Translations under genes and position numbers: made by a program
Notes under the pieces: model-generated
Told to the model about the DNA's origin: nothing
Database searches by the model: none
Seen by the model: the letters and a program-made list of their open reading frames with translations, nothing else
Source: Natronococcus sp. A-GB7
GTDB taxonomy: Archaea > Halobacteriota > Halobacteria > Halobacteriales > Natrialbaceae
DNA: 44,137 nt
Assembly (NCBI RefSeq): GCF_029688865.1
Contig: NZ_JARUKV010000034.1
Location: 1 to 44,137, forward strand
Direction of reading: 5' to 3'
In this document: positions 30,746 to 39,380 of the stretch, in pieces
Layout: every line of letters begins with the position of its first letter
Position numbering within the stretch: position 1 is the first letter of the stretch

Positions 30746-31085
30746 TCAGCGCTTGATTGTCGTCCCTCGAACAATGTCATAGACTTTGTGACGGTGCACT
30801 CTCATTTCATGCTTCGCATCATGGGACATGGGGCACTTGACCAGATTGACTCCGGTACAGCCTCGAACTCGACAGAGGTAGCAGAACAGCCAGGAAGGGA
30901 TATGGACTAAATTGCCGCTCTGTTGGAGCGAACCGTTGTGTTTGACGACAACTCCAATCGAAATCTCGTACTCACCGACGAAACGGTGGATACCGCGAAG
31001 GTTCATGTCGCTCGAATTCTCGCGTTTCACCCCTACAGACAAAGTGTACCCAGCACCATCGATTTGGACTATCTGCTCGGAAGTT
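30746..31085 (-). pseudogene. 3' remnant resembling the DUF4143 end of an AAA ATPase
   Basis: The minus strand reads EQIVQIDGAGYTLSVGVKRE, then MNLRGIHRFVGEYEISIGVVVKHNG and LVHIPSWLFCYLC, ending at a TGA at 30746. The pattern (beta strand, V-x-VK, L-G-RRF, GVVV, then IP-WLF) matches the C-terminal nuclease-like DUF4143 domain of archaeal AAA_14/DUF4143 ATPases. The ATPase part is absent, a stop lies just upstream, and its 5' end overlaps the winged-helix gene's end. A stand-alone ~98-residue protein from a TTG at 31042 is the alternative. Confidence 0.45.
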
Positions 31086-31299
31086 CTTCAGGAACAAGTT
31101 CGTAGATCCCATGGCCAAGTGGTTCCACGATATTATCCTGTTTCAATCGACCAAGACGCTCACGAACATATTGCGAAGAGTATCCCGTTTCTTCAGCAAT
31201 CAGCGGCGCATTTGCTCTCCCCTCACGAAGTACGTCTACGATTGCCCAGTCAGCATCCCGCATATCATCCGCGTCCATAAATCGTGCTGATGTACTCAT
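31069..31299 (-). CDS. phiH1-repressor-type winged-helix regulator
   Basis: A 76-residue DNA-binding protein. DWAIVDVLREGRANAPLIAEETGYSSQYVRERLGRLKQDNIVEPLGHGIYELVPE is a classic small haloarchaeal winged helix: recognition helix SSQYVRERLGRL, then a GHGIYEL wing. The start is the ATG at 31299; the longer frame upstream runs through the palindromic operator. It is transcribed away from the first leader-RNA module, and two palindromes fill the gap, one overlapping the module's TATA box. I infer that it represses that module and probably itself. Confidence 0.75.
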   Translation of the reverse strand: MSTSARFMDADDMRDADWAIVDVLREGRANAPLIAEETGYSSQYVRERLGRLKQDNIVEPLGHGIYELVPEELPSR

Positions 31300-31316
31300 T
31301 AGTGTCTGATAAATGG

Positions 31317-31330
31317 TTGGCAATTGCCAA
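31317..31330. promoter_or_regulatory. perfect 14-base palindrome (candidate operator)
   Basis: TTGGCAATTGCCAA is its own reverse complement. It lies 18 bases before the winged-helix start and touches the next inverted repeat, so it is well placed for autoregulation. Confidence 0.55.
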
Positions 31331-31365
31331 AAACCTATGGGTGATAACCTACAACCCATAGGTTT
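31331..31365. promoter_or_regulatory. 12-base inverted repeat operator overlapping the module TATA box
   Basis: AAACCTATGGGT (31331-31342) and ACCCATAGGTTT (31354-31365) pair perfectly, 11 bases apart. The right arm runs into TTAATA (31364-31369), so a bound dimer would block TBP at the plus-strand promoter. Confidence 0.65.
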
Positions 31366-31369
31366 AATA
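31364..31369 (+). promoter_or_regulatory. TATA box of module 1
   Basis: TTAATA lies 31 bases before the first base of the leader's closing stem at 31395, which places transcription start at or next to that stem. Confidence 0.5.
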
Positions 31370-31394: not shown

Positions 31395-31462
31395 AGACCG
31401 AGGGTGGCCGGAAAATCTCGGCCGGGTGCTCTAACACCCGACCTCGGTCTGGCTACAGACCA
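31395..31462 (+). ncRNA. structured 5' leader RNA, module 1 (three-way junction plus start-codon hairpin)
   Basis: Closing stem P1: AGACCGAGG (31395-31403) with CCTCGGTCT (31442-31450), 9 pairs. P2: GGCCG (31406-31410) with CGGCC (31419-31423) around GAAAATCT. P3: GGGTG (31424-31428) with CACCC (31435-31439) around CTCTAA. Alternative hairpin P4: GGTCTG (31446-31451) with CAGACC (31456-31461), one base before the ATG; it uses five bases of the P1 3' strand, so P1 and P4 exclude each other. No Shine-Dalgarno sequence is visible. The second copy at 35964-36034 keeps loops and pairings with different stem bases. Most haloarchaeal mRNAs are leaderless, so a folded leader is notable. Its ligand, if any, is unknown. 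Confidence 0.65.
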
Positions 31463-31774
31463 ATGACAGCTACAACACAATCCGACTCGAAGGTTTCGGA
31501 TGCAGTCGACAGTATGGCGGCGAAAGTCGGTTTCGTCGTCGGCATCGATTCAGAGCACTCCGCACACATCTACTACCCAGCTGCAGACACGGTCAAAGTC
31601 TACGACGTCGGTACCGACTACGTGGTCGGCGACTACATCGACAACGAGACACGCGAGCACACCGAGGAACTCGAGGGCCGCCCACTGGCACACTGGATGT
31701 GCTACGTCCGTGACGCCCGTGGCGAATGGGCCGAAACGACCCACCGAGCGCCAGCGTTCGGAGGGTCCAACTGA
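31463..31774 (+). CDS. VGID-type conserved haloarchaeal protein, module 1
   Basis: A 103-residue soluble protein that follows the leader RNA directly. Its core, VGFVVGIDSEHSAHIYYPAADTVKVYDV (~23-50), matches the product at 36035-36325 (LLVGIDTEDAHHVYRTTDETVHVI). The C-terminal half has W-x-CYVRDARGEW, similar to WIEYVKAERG in the paralogue. I know such pairs from haloarchaeal plasmids and provirus-like elements, but not their function. The stop overlaps the next start (TGATG). Confidence 0.75.
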   Translation: MTATTQSDSKVSDAVDSMAAKVGFVVGIDSEHSAHIYYPAADTVKVYDVGTDYVVGDYIDNETREHTEELEGRPLAHWMCYVRDARGEWAETTHRAPAFGGSN

Positions 31775-32223
31775 TGAAGCTCACCACGACTCCAGAGCAA
31801 CTGCTCGAGGGTCTCTCCATTGGCACCCAGGGCAGTACCCACTGCCAGTGGTGTGACTACGAATTCTACGAGGGCGACACCGCTACCGTTCTCGTATCTC
31901 ACCCAGCCGATGCCGACTGCTGGACGGTCCACCGCGCCTACTGCGCCGGCTGTGACCCCTCCGCGATCGCCGGTCCGACACTTGGCTGTACGGAGCTACT
32001 GGCTCGGTGTCGGCTGGGTACTCGAGCGGATCTCGCAATTCAGCAAACCGAGCTGGTCATTCTCGACCCCAAGCTGATCGACGCGAGTGAACCTGCCGAG
32101 AGTCAGTCTGCGCTCGAGACCGACGAGGACCCAACCACAGAGAGCCAGCCGTCGGACACGGAGGGCCTCGAGGTCGAGACGCTGCCACCGCGTCTCCGCA
32201 CGTCCGACAGCCGCGCCGACTGA
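31774..32223 (+). CDS. CxxC/CxxC zinc-ribbon-like protein, module 1
   Basis: 149 residues. The start MKLTTTPEQLLEGL is shared with the paralogue MRVATTPTQLLEGF at 36322. C24-x2-C27 and C57-x2-C60 could hold one zinc ion; between them lies a strand-rich region (GDTATVLVSHPADADCWTVHR). The segment GCTELLARCRLGTRADLAIQQTELV is nearly identical in the second copy. The acidic tail after ~110 is disordered and not conserved. ATG 31774 overlaps the preceding stop, so the upstream in-frame ATG at 31726 is not used. Function unknown; nucleic-acid or protein binding is a guess from the ribbon. Confidence 0.75.
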   Translation: MKLTTTPEQLLEGLSIGTQGSTHCQWCDYEFYEGDTATVLVSHPADADCWTVHRAYCAGCDPSAIAGPTLGCTELLARCRLGTRADLAIQQTELVILDPKLIDASEPAESQSALETDEDPTTESQPSDTEGLEVETLPPRLRTSDSRAD

Positions 32224-32374
32224 GCCCGGCACTCGATGTCGGTCACTTCGCCCCCAGCCCACGAGTGTGGAGACTCCACCGTTTCCGGAGTTCTCCCAGA
32301 CAGGTCGACCGACGACAGCAGACACAGCAACGCGTATCGTTCGCACAGCGATTTTTCACGATTGCGAAGCCACA

Positions 32375-32686
32375 ATGTCTTCCGACCACACTACTTCCGA
32401 CAGCGACGCACAGTCGACGACTATCCAGACGCTAACCGAGGAACTGCGAGCACTTCGCTCACGAGTCGACGACCTCGAGACCGAAAATGAGGTGCTCAAA
32501 CGCCGCGTTGAAACACAGTCCGATCGAATCGAGGGACTCGAGAGCCAGATCAACAAGAACGGCCAAGTCCGAACAGGCCTCGCACAGAACGCTAATGAGG
32601 CAAGGTTGGCGGCTGAAGAAGCGAGGGGAATTGCCTACTCTGCCAGCGCGAAAGCGTCCCAGGTCGAAGCCAGCAATGGAAAGTGA
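32375..32686 (+). CDS. coiled-coil protein downstream of module 1
   Basis: 103 residues: an acidic Ser/Thr/Asp tail (~1-18), then an unbroken heptad pattern (LTEELRALRSRVDDLETENEVLKRRVETQ, about 20-65), then an Ala-rich helix. The frame is open for 96 codons upstream, but the ATG at 32375 is where haloarchaeal composition starts, and an AT-rich TATA-like run precedes it by about 22 bases. In related elements such a coiled coil is joined to a longer C-terminal domain; the gene after it may be that part, separated here. Confidence 0.65.
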   Translation: MSSDHTTSDSDAQSTTIQTLTEELRALRSRVDDLETENEVLKRRVETQSDRIEGLESQINKNGQVRTGLAQNANEARLAAEEARGIAYSASAKASQVEASNGK

Positions 32687-32728
32687 GAGCGACAGGCAGC
32701 ACAGCTACCTAGTAATGTCGATCCTTCA

Positions 32729-33256
32729 ATGAGTCCGCTTGATTTCTTCGTGAATTGTCGCCCATACAAGGTCAGGGAGCGCTTCGCCGATGAGTGGAAT
32801 GAACAAAACACATACCAAGCGTTACTCGTCACGAAGCGCTGGGACGAATTCGCGACCAAACAAACCACTGGCGGCGGTGTGTTCTTCACTCGTGGCAACG
32901 TGCGGCAGGCCCTGACCGCGATCATGGGCGAACAGCCACGCGGGACGACTACTATGCGCGTCTGGGATTCGATAGTAGAACTTGGGGGAGGGAATCTCGA
33001 GAAACGAACGCAGAAGGTGAGTCCGAAGCAGCCAGCAAAGGAGATCTTAGCAATGGACTTCGAGACTGCGACTGGATTGCTCGAGGATCGCTACTGTCAT
33101 TTGGATCTGCTTGAGGAAAGTGCAGCGAGTGCTGGTAGTATCACACCTGTTGTGACCAAGCCAACAGCCAAGCAGCGTGGGAATAACAAGAAGAGCTGCT
33201 ACAATATAAGATACAGCTACGGCCGGACTGATTATCGAGTTCCCTGGATGAATTAG
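32729..33256 (+). CDS. uncharacterised protein, possibly the detached C-terminal part of the coiled-coil protein
   Basis: 175 residues with an unusual mix: a helical first 110 residues (YQALLVTKRWDEFATKQ, then FFTRGNVRQALTAIMGEQP and RVWDSIVELGGGNLE) and a basic tail with Tyr and Arg. The order 'helix, W-D-FA, strand, R-N-VR-AL, G-E, helix, basic strand' recalls the C-terminal domain following coiled coils in haloarchaeal plasmid proteins. That is recollection, not a search. It starts 42 bases after the coiled-coil stop. Confidence 0.5.
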   Translation: MSPLDFFVNCRPYKVRERFADEWNEQNTYQALLVTKRWDEFATKQTTGGGVFFTRGNVRQALTAIMGEQPRGTTTMRVWDSIVELGGGNLEKRTQKVSPKQPAKEILAMDFETATGLLEDRYCHLDLLEESAASAGSITPVVTKPTAKQRGNNKKSCYNIRYSYGRTDYRVPWMN

Positions 33257-33412
33257 CGATGGGCCCATGTCCCGAATCTGCTGCAGCAGGTTAGACCGTC
33301 ACTTCGTGTATATGAGCCTACTCGGTAGCTATAACCTTCTATGATTGGAACGACGAAATTGCTGTCCTACAGACCACTTAGTCCTGTAGTCAGACCCAGA
33401 TTTTGGATAATA

Positions 33413-35350
33413 TCAATCCTCAGTCCAATCGTCATACTCGGAATCGAGTTCTGCTGCGCGCTTATAATGCTTTTCTGCCCTCTGCTCCTCTCCTTCACTC
33501 GAGAGAAATTGAGCATACTCGTAATGAGTTTTCGCGCAATCGGGTTTGATGTCCAACGACTCTTTGAAATGATCTTCCGCCTCTTGTTCTTCATTTAATT
33601 TCTCCCATAATAGAGTTGCATATTTTCTGTGAGCTTCGGAGTTTCTTGGGTCACTTTCTAGTGCAGCCTTGTAGTAGTCTTTAGACTCTTCCGGATTATT
33701 CAATTCATTCGAGAGCAAATCTGCATAATGAAGGTTACCCGAAACGTCATTCGAATCAATTCTAAGTGCTGTCTGATAATGTTCCTCAGATTTTTCCAAA
33801 TCTCCTATTTCTTCAGATAATAATTCTGCATACTTAGTGTGTGTAGATACATCATCTGGGTTGAGTTCGAGAGCTCTTTCATAATGCTTCTGCGCTGCTT
33901 GCGGCTGGTCTAGCTGGTTTCCAAGCAAATCTGCATAGTTGCTGTGATGAGCATAGTGTTCAGAGTTAAGATCAAGAGCCCTTTGATAATGTTCTTCTGC
34001 TTTTTCCGGTTGTTCTAGTTCGTCTCTTAATAACTTCGCATAATTTCCATGTGCAGAATGATTCTCTGGATTGAGCTCTAGAGACTTCTCGAAATGTTTT
34101 TGAGATTTCTCTGGCTCCTCAAGTTTATTAAATAATATATGAGCGTAATTATTATGGACAGGGGGGTCCTCAGGATCGATCTCGAGTGCCTTTTTGAAAT
34201 GATTTTTTGCCCTCTCTGGCTCGTCAAATCCCTCATTCAATATGCGTGCATAAAGAGAGTGCGCTCTTGAAAATATTTGAGGTAAATCTCCATTCGTTTC
34301 TTCTTCATCTAGTACATCATCTAAGATATTACTAGCTTCTTCATACTTTTCTGAATTGAAAGCCGAATATGCTTTAGCAATAGAATTAGATATGTCGAAT
34401 TTTTTCTGTTCTTCCTCGGGAGCGTGTTTCATTGCTTCTTGCCTTTTTTCTGAAAGCGAAATGGCTCGACTGTGAGCTCGTTCCATCAGTTTGTGTTCCT
34501 GAGGTGCAGTCAACCCATCTACCCTGGTATATATTTTTGAAAATAGTTCTTCAAATCCTTCAATTTCCACGTGGAATACATTAGGTTGGTGTAGTAGCTT
34601 CTCTGTATATTCAGAAACGTCATCAACTGAACGCGTGCACCAAAAAATACCGGCATCAGACCGATTTGCTTCCAAGAGAGGTTTCATTAGAGAGTTGTCT
34701 AATCCGCTATAGCCAACAACGACTAGTCCATATTCGCCAATTGTTTGGGTTAAAATATCTGCAATATTCTCTTCTAGATCCTTTGTTTCGCTACCCAGAT
34801 TTTTGACGTTTTCGTACAGATAATCTCCGTGCACCTTAACGATTGTTGGTGAATCACGCGTCAGAGTGAATTGTGTTGCTATTGCATTATGGTTTATTAG
34901 AAGTGGTCTTTGCTCAATATAATGATAGAACGCGTCATACAGAAGGTCGTCAAAGTTAGGTGTTAATGTTACTGGAACGTATTTCTCACCATAATCATTA
35001 GTCATCATCGATGCAAGTACAATATGTCCAAATTGAGGGTCAGCCCCGCTTACGACTTGATTCTCTATGTATTTTCGCCGCTGTCTTTTTGTCGTATACA
35101 CTTCTTCAAACCAAAATCCATACGCATTTTGAGTCTCGTTTATACTTCTTTCTTTCTTTGATACCCATCCCTCAAAATTTTCTTCGGTTTTTTCTCTGCT
35201 GTAAGCTTCCTTTTGCCAGTTCTCTATTAGACCACTGGCTGTAGGGATTCCTGCGGATTTCGATGTCCCAGCACCAATCAGAAAAGCATATTCTCCTTTA
35301 CATTCAGTGATTGTTTTTATGAGGTCGTCTATTGTCTTTTGCTTTATCAT
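33413..35350 (-). CDS. SIR2-TPR defence-type NADase candidate
   Basis: 645 residues. The first ~290 form a SIR2_2-type domain: NAD-loop GAGTSKSAGIP (26-36), TPNFDDLL (130-137), catalytic-type His in VKVHGD (H174) and VVGYSGLD (211-218). From ~365 there are about eight tandem TPR-like repeats of 35 residues (pattern PEKAEEHYQRALDLN, then YADLL). SIR2 proteins in phage defence deplete NAD+ when triggered (Thoeris ThsA, DSR proteins); the TPRs would sense or bind a partner. The gene is strikingly AT-rich (19 of 60 bases G/C in the line at 34321, against 33 of 60 at 22741 in mcrB), and the protein is Lys-rich, unlike its neighbours, so recent transfer is likely. It sits between the two leader-RNA modules. 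Confidence 0.87.
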   Translation of the reverse strand: MIKQKTIDDLIKTITECKGEYAFLIGAGTSKSAGIPTASGLIENWQKEAYSREKTEENFEGWVSKKERSINETQNAYGFWFEEVYTTKRQRRKYIENQVVSGADPQFGHIVLASMMTNDYGEKYVPVTLTPNFDDLLYDAFYHYIEQRPLLINHNAIATQFTLTRDSPTIVKVHGDYLYENVKNLGSETKDLEENIADILTQTIGEYGLVVVGYSGLDNSLMKPLLEANRSDAGIFWCTRSVDDVSEYTEKLLHQPNVFHVEIEGFEELFSKIYTRVDGLTAPQEHKLMERAHSRAISLSEKRQEAMKHAPEEEQKKFDISNSIAKAYSAFNSEKYEEASNILDDVLDEEETNGDLPQIFSRAHSLYARILNEGFDEPERAKNHFKKALEIDPEDPPVHNNYAHILFNKLEEPEKSQKHFEKSLELNPENHSAHGNYAKLLRDELEQPEKAEEHYQRALDLNSEHYAHHSNYADLLGNQLDQPQAAQKHYERALELNPDDVSTHTKYAELLSEEIGDLEKSEEHYQTALRIDSNDVSGNLHYADLLSNELNNPEESKDYYKAALESDPRNSEAHRKYATLLWEKLNEEQEAEDHFKESLDIKPDCAKTHYEYAQFLSSEGEEQRAEKHYKRAAELDSEYDDWTED

Positions 35351-35616
35351 AGATCCCCTTGTACCTCTTTTTCCATAATTACCTAACAGGATGTAGTTTC
35401 TCTCATAATAAGATTTTCATTGATATTAGATACACATGCACTACCACGTGTATGACTGTATGCAAAGAGACAACATTATTTGGTTGGATTTTTCTAATTG
35501 TTTGGTGTGGTTCCAATGATTGTAGAATGTATAGGCTTTTCAGCCCATTTGAGTGTACTTAACTGACTTCTAACGTTCACTCATCCCAGACTTGCTCAAC
35601 TAAACAACACCCCACA

Positions 35617-35865
35617 TTATCTCTCAGAATTACTATTATAATTCTCACAGACAACTGTTCGGAGTTCTTCGAGAAGTTCCGGATGATGTTCCTCCAACAT
35701 TCTGATGTCCTGGGGCAATTCATCTCGAATACGTTTCCGAACCCGCGATACTGCTTGGTATCGCTTCGAATCATCCACATCGGCCTCATCACTTATTCGC
35801 TCAAATTCTGTATCTGTAATTAGCGCGCGTGATTTCGCCATGTCTGCTGTTTTGACGGTTGGCAT
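35617..35865 (-). CDS. small conserved haloarchaeal protein, divergent from module 2
   Basis: 82 residues (or 74 from the ATG at 35841). AKSRALITDTEFERI, then RYQAVSRVRKRIRDELPQDIRMLEEHHPELLEELRTVVCE is a pattern I know from small haloarchaeal proteins of unknown function in mobile DNA. It is all-helical and charged. It holds the place that the winged-helix repressor has beside module 1, and three copies of a 9-base repeat lie in its upstream region, so a regulatory role is inferred. Confidence 0.6.
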   Translation of the reverse strand: MPTVKTADMAKSRALITDTEFERISDEADVDDSKRYQAVSRVRKRIRDELPQDIRMLEEHHPELLEELRTVVCENYNSNSER

Positions 35866-35876
35866 AGTAGTATCTT

Positions 35877-35930
35877 ATATTCGCAGTAGCAAAATAGTTG
35901 CGTATATTCGCAATGTTCCAAATATTCGCA
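35877..35930. repeat. three 9-base direct repeats in the divergent promoter of module 2
   Basis: ATATTCGCA occurs at 35877-35885, 35904-35912 and 35922-35930. The middle copy is preceded by TGCG, making a partial palindrome (TGCG-TATATT-CGCA). The cluster ends just before the TATA box of module 2, the position of an operator. Confidence 0.6.
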
Positions 35931-35934
35931 ATCC

Positions 35935-35940
35935 TTAATA
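35935..35940 (+). promoter_or_regulatory. TATA box of module 2
   Basis: TTAATA, identical to the module 1 box, lies 29 bases before the leader's closing stem at 35964. Confidence 0.5.
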
Positions 35941-35963
35941 CCGGACAGGAGAAATGGTGACTA

Positions 35964-36034
35964 AGCACGGAATGTCTCGGAAAATCTCCGAGGACGGTGC
36001 TGGAACACCGACCCCGTGCTGGAGTCTACCAGCA
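35964..36034 (+). ncRNA. structured 5' leader RNA, module 2 (covarying copy)
   Basis: P1: AGCACGG (35964-35970) with CCGTGCT (36014-36020), 7 pairs. P2: CTCGG (35976-35980) with CCGAG (35988-35992) around AAAATCT. P3: CGGTG (35995-35999) with CACCG (36006-36010) around CTGGAA. Alternative P4: TGCTGG (36017-36022) with CCAGCA (36029-36034), touching the ATG at 36035 and sharing four bases with P1. Unpaired or loop-edge sequences CGGAAAATCTC and GGTGCT/AACACC are the same as in module 1, while P1, P2 and P4 bases differ yet still pair. The frame is open through the leader from an ATG at 35954, but that ATG lies upstream of the predicted transcript start. Confidence 0.65.
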
Positions 36035-36325
36035 ATGTCAATTCAACCACGCACACCCGAAACCGTTTCGGCTCGCAGTCGCACCGACCACCCGAACTAC
36101 CTCCTCGTCGGCATTGACACCGAGGACGCACACCACGTCTACCGAACCACCGACGAAACCGTCCACGTCATCCACGGCACCGACCGAACCTGCCGCTACA
36201 ACCTAGACGCCCACAACCTGTGCATCTACGACTGGATCGAGTACGTCAAAGCCGAACGCGGCTTCACCACACAACACCTCTACTCGAGCCTCTCCACTGC
36301 GTTCCCCAACGGTGACGACCAATGA
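36035..36325 (+). CDS. VGID-type conserved haloarchaeal protein, module 2
   Basis: 96 residues: YLLVGIDTEDAHHVYRTTDETVHVIHGTD (~26-54), then a helical end with WIEYVKAERGFTT. It is a paralogue of the protein at 31463, shorter in the middle. It starts directly after leader hairpin P4, and its stop overlaps the next start (ATGA). Function unknown. Confidence 0.75.
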   Translation: MSIQPRTPETVSARSRTDHPNYLLVGIDTEDAHHVYRTTDETVHVIHGTDRTCRYNLDAHNLCIYDWIEYVKAERGFTTQHLYSSLSTAFPNGDDQ

Positions 36326-36687
36326 GAGTCGCCACCACCCCCACCCAACTCCTCGAGGGATTCCCAGTCGGGCCCCAACCCACTGCGTGCCAACACTGCG
36401 GGGACATCCTCCAGGAAGGCGACCGCGCGACCGTCTTCGCCGCCCGCCCAGCCGACACAGACCAGTGGGCGATCCATCGCCCCTACTGTCTGACCTGCAG
36501 TCCCGACACCATCCGCCATCCAACAGTCGGCTGTACGGAACTCCTCGCGCAGTGCCGACTCGGCACTCGCGCTGATCTGGCCACCCAGCAGACCCGACTC
36601 GTCGTCCTCGAGCCCGAACTCACTGACTCGAGTCCCCCGACCAACAGGGCCACCGACCCACGGGCGATGCCCGTCCCACCCCGGTGA
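36322..36687 (+). CDS. CxxC/CxxC zinc-ribbon-like protein, module 2
   Basis: 121 residues, paralogous to the product at 31774. C23-x2-C26 and C56-x2-C59 are kept; the stretch GCTELLAQCRLGTRADLATQQTRLVVLEPEL is almost the same as in copy 1. The tail is Pro-rich and short. It is coupled to the preceding gene by an ATGA overlap. About 158 bases without a supported gene separate it from the next CDS, much like the 151-base gap in module 1. Confidence 0.75.
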   Translation: MRVATTPTQLLEGFPVGPQPTACQHCGDILQEGDRATVFAARPADTDQWAIHRPYCLTCSPDTIRHPTVGCTELLAQCRLGTRADLATQQTRLVVLEPELTDSSPPTNRATDPRAMPVPPR

Positions 36688-36845: not shown

Positions 36846-39380
36846 GTGACCGACGCGGGACTCACACCGACACAACAGCCGCCGCTCTCTCCAACGGCCA
36901 CCCTCGAGATCGATACCGATCCAGTCTCCGAACTCTGGGAACAGCTGTTCGACCACCAGTCGATTCGCGACCGATTCATCCGTGCCGTCCGTCGGTTCGC
37001 CGACGGCCGGACTGTCCCAGAGTGTTACAAGCACCTCGAGGACCAACAGATCCCCTACTGGCTGCGCTCTCGAATACTGGACGTTGCCCGCGGCAACCGT
37101 CGCGAAGCCTGGCGACTCGCCACCGATCTCGTGCCAAAACTGGGACAGGGTCACGCGAGTCTCGAGGACCTGTTCGCGACTGCCGACTTCTTCACCACTA
37201 ATGTTGCCGACGAGCAGCCGCCGACGCTCGCGATAACAATCGACCGCGCGTTCGAGGACGCCCCGCGACGGAAACGCGAGTCGGTCTGCCGACTGCTCGC
37301 CGTCCTTGCGACCGGCTTCGACATCCGCGTCGTCGCGAGTGGCCGCACTCAGCATTGGCTCGCTCGAGAGCACCGCGAAGAACTGCCCGGCGTGAGCGAG
37401 TGGCGGGAGACACACCATCCTACTGGGGACCAAGTTGAGCAAGCACTCGAGGTACTGGATCCCGATGGCCGCAAGGTCGAACTCCTGCGACAACTCGAGA
37501 AAGAACCCGCCAAGACGCTCTCGAGGCACGCACTACGAGCGATGCACGACGTCGACCGCAGTCGGATCTCCCAGCTGCTGGTCTCCGAGCAGAACTCGCT
37601 CACGGAACTCGGACTCATCGCCGAGTTTGGGCCCGCCGATGATCGGACTGTCGAGTTGCTCGAGGCCGGCCGACAGCTACTCGCCACGCTGGACGCCCAA
37701 GTCGGCCGGCAGCAGGAATTGACCGAGGCCGTGAGCGACACCGGAACAACCGGCCAACAGTGCCGTGTAACCCCGCGCACACGAGGGGAGGGAGGTGACA
37801 GCAGTACAGACAACAACCCCTACCGGACAGCCTATCTCGACCGTCCAAGCCATGCCGGTGCTGTCGGCTGTGGGGAAGCCGGCGATATCGCCCTCGTAGA
37901 CGCACCGTTCGAAGGCCAAGCAGACGCTCCGGACCACACTCGGTACGTGAGCTTCGACGGCGATCGGGAGGAAGCCGTGGTCGCGGTTCGGGCGAGTGGG
38001 CCCCTGCAGTACGTGGTGAGTCTCGCGACAGCGTTAGCCTCTCCGCGGTTGGTTAACCGAGTGCTCACCGACAGCCGTCTCGAGTCCCTAGAAGATCCGC
38101 CGGCGATCCTTCGGGATGCTCGGTGTATCGGTGGACTCTCGGATGAGGCTCTCGCGGATCCGGAAACACTTCGAGAGACGTTCATCGAGTGGGGGACTGA
38201 GCTCGAGGATCTCACGGCAAAACTCTCGGCCGGCGAGTACGAGGCCCGCGACCGCTTCCGTGGGTCGATCATGCGATCGGCTCACGGCCTTGCTGGCTCG
38301 ATTATCCATCTCTTCGACGCTCTCGAGATTGACGTTACCCGCGAACTCCGGGTGCCGGCTGGGCTCGACACGAACTCGCTGAAGGAACTCGCGACGTCGA
38401 TCAGCATTTCAGCCGCAATTCAGTCGAAATACGGTGCGTTCGCCTGTTATCGGCAGCTGTTCGAAGCTCGAGAGGAGAAGCGTCAGAGTGCGCTCTCGCC
38501 GACTGTCGACGCCGACGACCCACTGGGGACGCTCATTGGCTCCCTGGTCGTTCGTGGAAACGACGTCCACCGACTCCGCCCGAAACTCGAGCAATCGCTC
38601 GAGACGCCAGCAGCGCTCGCTGAGGACGCTCCCGAATTCGCGGTCCGCGTTTCCCTGTCAACAGTCGACCGGACAGCCTATGCAGCGGCTGTGACGCGAA
38701 TCCTCCAAGCCAAGAATCTGCGACTAACTCGAGAGATCGTTTCGTTGCTCCACGCACTGGCTGGTTCACCATACGCCGCTGCTCGAGCACTGCAGCAACT
38801 CGGCGCCGAAGACGACCGCCGAGAGCTTCGACCGGACGAACTCCGCTATGCGCTGGGAACACTCGAGCCTGCGCAGTTGCTCTCCGATCTCCCACCGACG
38901 GTTGGCCGAATCGTTCATACTCTTCTCACAGCTGAAAGACGCCTCTCACAGTGTGAGCTCGCCGACCGGGCGGACCTCTCGACACGGACGGTCCGGAACT
39001 ATCGCAACCGACTCGAGGCGCTCGATCTCATCCGTGTCGACGAGAACGGGTATCGTCTGGCGTTATCGTTCCAGATAGCCACCGAACGCCGTGACTCAGT
39101 TGTTCCGGCTGTGCTTGAGGAGAACCAGACGCTCCTCGATGCAGCCGATGCGCTGCTCGAGACGATTCTCACACCAGACCGGTACGGCGATCCAGATGAC
39201 CCGCTTGGGAGTGCGTTGTTCTGGCCACCGGATCCGGAACGGTTACTCGACCATCCGACGACTGGCCCATGGATGCGACTAGCCGCTGCACTCACAGCAA
39301 CAGAACTCACCAAAGACAGCCAGACCGTTCAGATAGGACCAATGCTCGAGCAGCAATCGCTTTCTCACACAACTCCGTAA
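36846..39380 (+). CDS. large winged-helix protein of a haloarchaeal mobile element
   Basis: 844 residues from a GTG preceded by a Shine-Dalgarno-like GAGGTGA 10 bases away. The first ~220 residues have an alpha/beta pattern with a hydrophobic strand and acid (TLAITIDRAFED, then FDIRVVASGRTQHWL). A middle region (~330-560) is helical, and a C-terminal MarR-like helix-turn-helix (LSQCELADRADLSTRTVRNYRNRLEALDLIRVDENGYRL, ~695-735) is clear. No Walker A motif is visible. I cannot place it in a named family. A replication-initiation or regulatory role in the element is possible from its size, winged helix and the hairpins just downstream. Confidence 0.65.
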   Translation: MTDAGLTPTQQPPLSPTATLEIDTDPVSELWEQLFDHQSIRDRFIRAVRRFADGRTVPECYKHLEDQQIPYWLRSRILDVARGNRREAWRLATDLVPKLGQGHASLEDLFATADFFTTNVADEQPPTLAITIDRAFEDAPRRKRESVCRLLAVLATGFDIRVVASGRTQHWLAREHREELPGVSEWRETHHPTGDQVEQALEVLDPDGRKVELLRQLEKEPAKTLSRHALRAMHDVDRSRISQLLVSEQNSLTELGLIAEFGPADDRTVELLEAGRQLLATLDAQVGRQQELTEAVSDTGTTGQQCRVTPRTRGEGGDSSTDNNPYRTAYLDRPSHAGAVGCGEAGDIALVDAPFEGQADAPDHTRYVSFDGDREEAVVAVRASGPLQYVVSLATALASPRLVNRVLTDSRLESLEDPPAILRDARCIGGLSDEALADPETLRETFIEWGTELEDLTAKLSAGEYEARDRFRGSIMRSAHGLAGSIIHLFDALEIDVTRELRVPAGLDTNSLKELATSISISAAIQSKYGAFACYRQLFEAREEKRQSALSPTVDADDPLGTLIGSLVVRGNDVHRLRPKLEQSLETPAALAEDAPEFAVRVSLSTVDRTAYAAAVTRILQAKNLRLTREIVSLLHALAGSPYAAARALQQLGAEDDRRELRPDELRYALGTLEPAQLLSDLPPTVGRIVHTLLTAERRLSQCELADRADLSTRTVRNYRNRLEALDLIRVDENGYRLALSFQIATERRDSVVPAVLEENQTLLDAADALLETILTPDRYGDPDDPLGSALFWPPDPERLLDHPTTGPWMRLAAALTATELTKDSQTVQIGPMLEQQSLSHTTP

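Follow-up and report, generated by a model that had tools for sequence, protein, structure and literature searches.

The window analyzed here, a 44,137-nucleotide stretch of Natronococcus sp. A-GB7 (contig NZ_JARUKV010000034.1), is a defense island (3916–30694 and 33413–35350) with a DruE-like helicase, DISARM-like components (two DrmMI-like methylases and a DrmD-like helicase), TmtA, a restriction-like protein, and a SIR2-TPR protein. The gene for the last of these is located between two modules, each made of a structured leader followed directly on its 3' side by a small gene, A, which overlaps a second gene, B (Table 1). The two B proteins are 58% identical; the A proteins are distant relatives (25%). 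Gene A copies are also found on plasmids of Haloterrigena turkmenica DSM 5511 and Natronococcus occultus SP4. AlphaFold models of A2 (pLDDT 72) and B1 (pLDDT 83) find no significant fold match in the PDB. A gene for an 844-aa protein with a C-terminal HTH (VTDAGLTPTQQPPLSP...; 36846–39380) comes after the second gene pair and is kept behind related pairs.

Table 1. Coordinates of the leader modules and neighboring features (positions are those of the window)
Feature	Position	Strand	Sequence, basis or remark
Leader RNA 1	31395-31462	+	Sequence, fold, covariance-model match E=1.5e-13
Leader 1 P1 (predicted)	31395-31403/31442-31450	+	AGACCGAGG/CCTCGGTCT
Leader 1 P2 (predicted)	31406-31411/31418-31423	+	GGCCGG/TCGGCC
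Leader 1 P3 (predicted)	31424-31428/31435-31439	+	GGGTG/CACCC
Leader 1 P4 (predicted)	31446-31461	+	GGTCTG 31446-31451/CAGACC 31456-31461; one nt 5' of AUG; excludes P1
Leader RNA 2	35964-36034	+	Sequence, fold, covariance-model match E=6.8e-11
Leader 2 P1 (predicted)	35964-35970/36014-36020	+	AGCACGG/CCGTGCT
Leader 2 P2 (predicted)	35975-35981/35987-35993	+	TCTCGGA/TCCGAGG
Leader 2 P3 (predicted)	35995-35999/36006-36010	+	CGGTG/CACCG
Leader 2 P4 (predicted)	36017-36034	+	TGCTGG 36017-36022/CCAGCA 36029-36034; abuts AUG; excludes P1; GGAG at 5' side
Gene A1	31463-31774	+	103 aa; first after leader 1
Gene B1	31774-32223	+	149 aa; CxxC...CxxC zinc-ribbon-like; overlaps A1 stop codon
Gene A2	36035-36325	+	96 aa; first after leader 2
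Gene B2	36322-36687	+	121 aa; B1 paralogue
First 13 codons of A1, apparently nucleotide-constrained	31463-31501	+	Family comparison
First 13 codons of A2, apparently nucleotide-constrained	36035-36073	+	As in copy 1
TATA box of leader 1	31363-31369	+	TTTAATA; sequence, family-wide TATA position
TATA box of leader 2	35935-35940	+	TTAATA; sequence, family-wide TATA position
Perfect 11-bp inverted repeat, probable operator	31332-31364		AACCTATGGGT/ACCCATAGGTT; overlaps TATA box; read from sequence
Three direct repeats (family D18), probable operator	35870-35932		ATATTCGCA; between divergent gene and promoter 2
Divergent winged-HTH regulator gene	31072-31359	-	Pfam HTH_24 E=1.3e-5; start codon uncertain
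Divergent small regulator-like gene	35620-35865	-	82 aa; RALLTETERE-type family, seen at other loci

The initial annotation described the same three-helix junction in both leaders. A P1/P2/P3 three-way junction is indeed predicted for each (−34 kcal/mol, z −3.7 for leader 1; −27 kcal/mol, z −2.3 for leader 2), but the helix lengths differ, with a P1 of 9 bp in leader 1 and 7 bp in leader 2 and slightly different lengths of P2. The elements it listed as fixed are found as described, i.e. CGGAAAATCTC is identical in both leaders (31409–31419 and 35978–35988), GGTGCT with AACACC is present in both, and TTAATA boxes start at 31364 and 35935, 31 and 29 nt 5' of P1. CGGAAAATCTC has only one other copy in the genome, a chance match within the 3'-terminal part of a transposase-like gene.

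Family-wide, an A-rich BRE is found at −33 to −31 and a TATA-like box at −29 to −23 relative to the start of the leader model. The distance between these elements and the start of transcription is well established in archaea, and based on this spacing the transcript would begin at the first bases of P1, in agreement with the earlier proposal that it starts at the stem, with a leader of about 65–75 nt. Most loci also carry a close, divergent small gene upstream; among 130, it is winged-HTH-like in 79 and belongs to a second family in 28. The repeats overlapping or preceding the promoters in the window (Table 1) are probable operators. Similarly, haloviral repressor-operator regions of the PhiH1/PhiCh1 type pair an operon promoter with a small, divergently oriented regulator; the PhiCh1 repressor region was considered as a relative and rejected, as the leader model matches nothing significantly in the first 50 kb of PhiCh1.

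We searched for further members using a covariance model whose base pairs are those of P1–P3 only, seeded by 24 leaders with very different stems that were reached via gene B homologues in relatives. At E ≤ 0.1, a threshold at which some tens of the matched genomes may be chance matches, the leader is matched in 204 of the 392 genomes sampled from the order, and at E ≤ 0.001 in about 146 of 392 (counted from the listed best E-values)—i.e. a frequency of about 37–52%. These matches cover 67 of 95 genera of the order (E ≤ 0.1); a single genome has as many as 8 copies, and A-GB7 itself has about six. Outside the order, the model has zero matches among 148 genomes drawn from the whole phylum. A further 80 loci were retrieved, and the leader and its neighboring genes were read in each. 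Some gene B homologues (L009, L030, and L032) have no match to the leader model and share another hairpin, ACGGGAGGTAACAGTGTAACCTCCGGTG, upstream instead.

The leader represents an RNA family absent from Rfam 15, consistent with the initial annotation, which recognized no described family. Specifically, there is no Rfam 15 match on the leader in the window region up to E = 5 or, up to E = 0.5, at another 12 loci, and we found no prior description in the literature searched, which largely excludes subscription journals. The leaders also have no CRISPR family match. A CRISPR-handle origin, suggested by the spacing of GAAGC and GTTTC, was rejected because both motifs are missing from many members; GAAGC is one of several P4 arm types (see below).

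Two copies are insufficient to prove that stems are kept paired through compensatory change, and the proof comes from the approximately 130 further members, which carry such changes in P1–P3. Among 99 distinct sequences, 86.5% of P1–P3 cells are paired, and double-sided changes affect 394 cells, compared with 131 ± 9 after shuffling and no more than 54 when partners are slid, in an alignment that was fitted to the covariance model. These changes involve 17 of the 20 pairs of P1–P3. A ranking of all column pairs across the leader and coding start, which used no pair information although its leader columns come from the model-fitted alignment, places pairs of P1, P2, and P3 at 10 of the first 13 positions (11 of 13 counting the next one down). 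Both analyses reveal that the 5' UTR holds an aptamer-like fold that is conserved and covaries, in line with the selected RNA structure proposed from the two copies. The pairs also carry a strand signature, as G-U outnumbers A-C in P2 (85 vs 26). At the two ends of the six-nt P3 loop, the facing nucleotides are usually C-A (40) or U-G (31), which are isosteric wobble pairs. The G-U excess and this interchange point to selection on RNA from the transcribed strand rather than on DNA.

Beyond what the initial annotation contained, we find a second pairing at the start codon, an extension of the conserved signal into the first 13 codons, and unrelated operons, with at least 27 types of first gene, behind the leader. 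The second pairing, P4, joins the 3' strand of P1 to a segment ending 0–3 nt before the AUG, so that P1 and P4 are mutually exclusive; in riboswitch terms, and by computation, the leader has an expression platform that excludes the aptamer-closing helix. A P4 of 5–9 bp is present in 119 of 129 distinct leaders, about 8% lacking it under the detection rule used. Because P4 pairs are absent from the covariance model, their conservation constitutes a separate test. The mean best contiguous helix is 6.07 bp in 48 nonredundant leaders, compared with 4.53 ± 0.13 bp when the 3' arms are swapped. This register-free test was chosen because column-based counts of P4 are register-sensitive; the arm is displaced by one nt from one member to another, which makes such counts weak—i.e. 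pairing exceeds shuffles in alignment A3, yet a one-column slide scores equally, and the count in alignment A2 is not significant.

In 118 of the 119 detected cases, the 5' strand of P1 is a second possible partner for the 5' arm of P4, and the three strands vary together, with types that include GAAGC, AGACC, CCAGC, AAGGC, AGGAC, and GAACC. The two states have nearly equal predicted energies, with a median P1-vs-P4 difference of −1.2 kcal/mol (range −5.9 to 4.7) for folds of about −35 (119 leaders), based on nearest-neighbor energies at 37 °C that do not represent molar KCl. The P1 state is predicted to be favored in 84 of 119 leaders, and the energy balance becomes worse when 3' arms are exchanged (mean −4.1 real vs −7.8 swapped). 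An SD-like tetramer is found at −22 to −7 in 51% of leaders, compared with 24% of shuffled sequences, the match not being clear in leader 1.

The first genes behind the leader fall into 27 clusters that are unrelated beyond residue 15, yet share their first 12–13 codons (residue identity across clusters of 0.175, vs 0.07 further in). Within this stretch, Glu at codon 9 is encoded by GAA in 84 of 84 cases (0.35 in gene bodies), Val at codon 11 by GTT in 41 of 44 (0.13 in gene bodies), and Gln at codon 4 by CAA in 26 of 26. The early codons of 473 neighboring genes have no such bias (GAA 0.42, GTT 0.19). Judged from these codon choices, the constraint acts on nucleotides, with a signal that is due in part to common descent inside large clusters. 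Scoring every column pair gave no convincing covariation for a coding-region hairpin or for pairing between the 13-codon stretch and the leader. The later genes of some leader operons (L099, L086, L096, and L112) encode recurrent coiled-coil proteins, some with an HTH-like C-terminal part, that are possibly related to replication or partition.

At other loci, the leader precedes SWIM zinc-finger genes located beside methyltransferases or type IIG enzymes, as well as operons encoding Csm3-like, Cmr3-like, and uncharacterized 249-aa proteins (L100, L103, L120, L126, L043, L045, and L169–L193). The latter operons are likely HRAMP, judging from the published description of these array-less haloarchaeal systems (PMC8730458). 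A leader is found upstream (E ≤ 0.03) at a minimum of 16 of 27 close homologues of the Csm3-like (HRAMP-like Cas7) protein, and these loci add the strand-swapped variants GAACCC and GACAACC. In viruses, neither gene A nor the SWIM-type first gene was found in phages, and a scan of viral contigs with gene B gave no match. The same scan with the leader pattern matched one contig, halovirus Humcor1 (L199, 3797–3878, minus strand), where a weak match (E = 5e-4) ends exactly at the HrrHm1_160 start codon and lies in divergent orientation to a RALLTETERE-family regulator gene.

The leader can adopt two incompatible folds, and one of them closes over the start codon, which resembles an integral on/off control of translation. 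We consider it likely that the leader is a cis-acting, bistable element regulating translation (off in P4, on in P1) and set by a common signal. The mRNA would start at the P1 5' strand. With the P1–P2–P3 junction closed, the nucleotides before the AUG would be free and ribosomes could initiate; in the other state, the outer 3' strand of P1 would pair with the AUG-abutting segment as P4, whose loop often contains or adjoins an SD-like GGAG/GAGG, and initiation would be blocked. A signal shared by many operons, such as a small molecule, an ion, an RNA-binding protein, or a small RNA, may bind or melt the junction and thereby set the balance between states, and the promoter is probably also controlled, on the level of DNA, by the divergent local regulator. 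The switch model does not account for the 13-codon constraint.

The leader may be seen as working like a translational riboswitch, a likeness that concerns architecture alone and assigns no class. Translational riboswitches with a mutually exclusive platform likewise have a 5' aptamer-like junction closed by P1, with the 3' strand shared with a hairpin at the RBS/AUG. By contrast, the haloarchaeal leader is without a known ligand or an Rfam match, precedes many unrelated operons, and has a constraint that continues 13 codons into the gene. Synthetic theophylline riboswitch E, which works in Haloferax volcanii, likewise regulates haloarchaeal translation with a hairpin that masks the SD and AUG, but it is engineered and differs from the leader in aptamer and sequence (PMC8241225).

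Other readings of the leader are each less likely than a bistable switch. Ribosomal protein and other autoregulatory leaders are likewise short structured 5' UTRs before an operon, and here too a downstream operon protein could bind its own leader: zinc-finger-like proteins of small size (CxxC, SWIM) are common among the downstream gene products, and the conserved P3 and P2 loops could serve as protein-binding sites. However, the first genes behind the haloarchaeal leader are mutually unrelated (27 clusters), and no single protein family is seen at all loci in a non-exhaustive sample of later operon genes. Autoregulation appears unlikely, and because one leader serves unrelated first genes, a common trans signal is likelier than control by the first product. 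We also give little credence to a passive structured 5' end, i.e. a fold that stabilizes the mRNA or acts as a ribosome stand-by site with no switching. This reading agrees with the predicted preference for the P1 state and with the location of the fold at the extreme 5' end of the transcript, but leaves the P4 complementarity, the joint change of three strands, and the energy balance unexplained.

Selection at the DNA level, whether on a cruciform, recombination, or operator site or on the single-stranded DNA structure that the initial annotation offered as an alternative, appears very improbable. Such recombination sites would have no strand bias and a position independent of gene starts, whereas the leader has strand-biased G-U pairs in P2, the C-A/U-G interchange in its P3 loop, and a fixed place between promoter and AUG. 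What speaks for a DNA site is that the module is common to unrelated genes and to mobile/defense contexts, with inverted repeats and divergent regulators nearby. The frequent presence of leaders at HRAMP-like Cas7 loci could also mean that array-less HRAMP complexes use the leader as a guide or scaffold RNA, its place at the head of the operon being incidental. This we regard as the most improbable reading, given that A-GB7 has no HRAMP-like Cas7 at E ≤ 1e-10 despite its several leaders, that the majority of leaders precede other operons, and that the leader lies directly against the AUG.

Most haloarchaeal mRNAs lack a leader. In H. volcanii, a study of transcription start sites judged control by structured leaders not typical (PMC4983044), and a structured leader with strong covariation and a two-state design in approximately 37–52% of the order's sampled genomes contrasts with this view. 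It is conceivable, if rather doubtful, that a single archaeal riboswitch-like class reads a common stress or infection signal and serves as the joint on/off control of dozens of unrelated mobile/defense operons, including HRAMP, extending into 13 codons so that new genes are captured behind a ready-made switch and an N-terminal tag. The link with HRAMP-like and accessory operons provides a handle on when such poorly understood systems turn on. Natural translational RNA switches in haloarchaea, and what they would sense, are now directly testable in tractable species.
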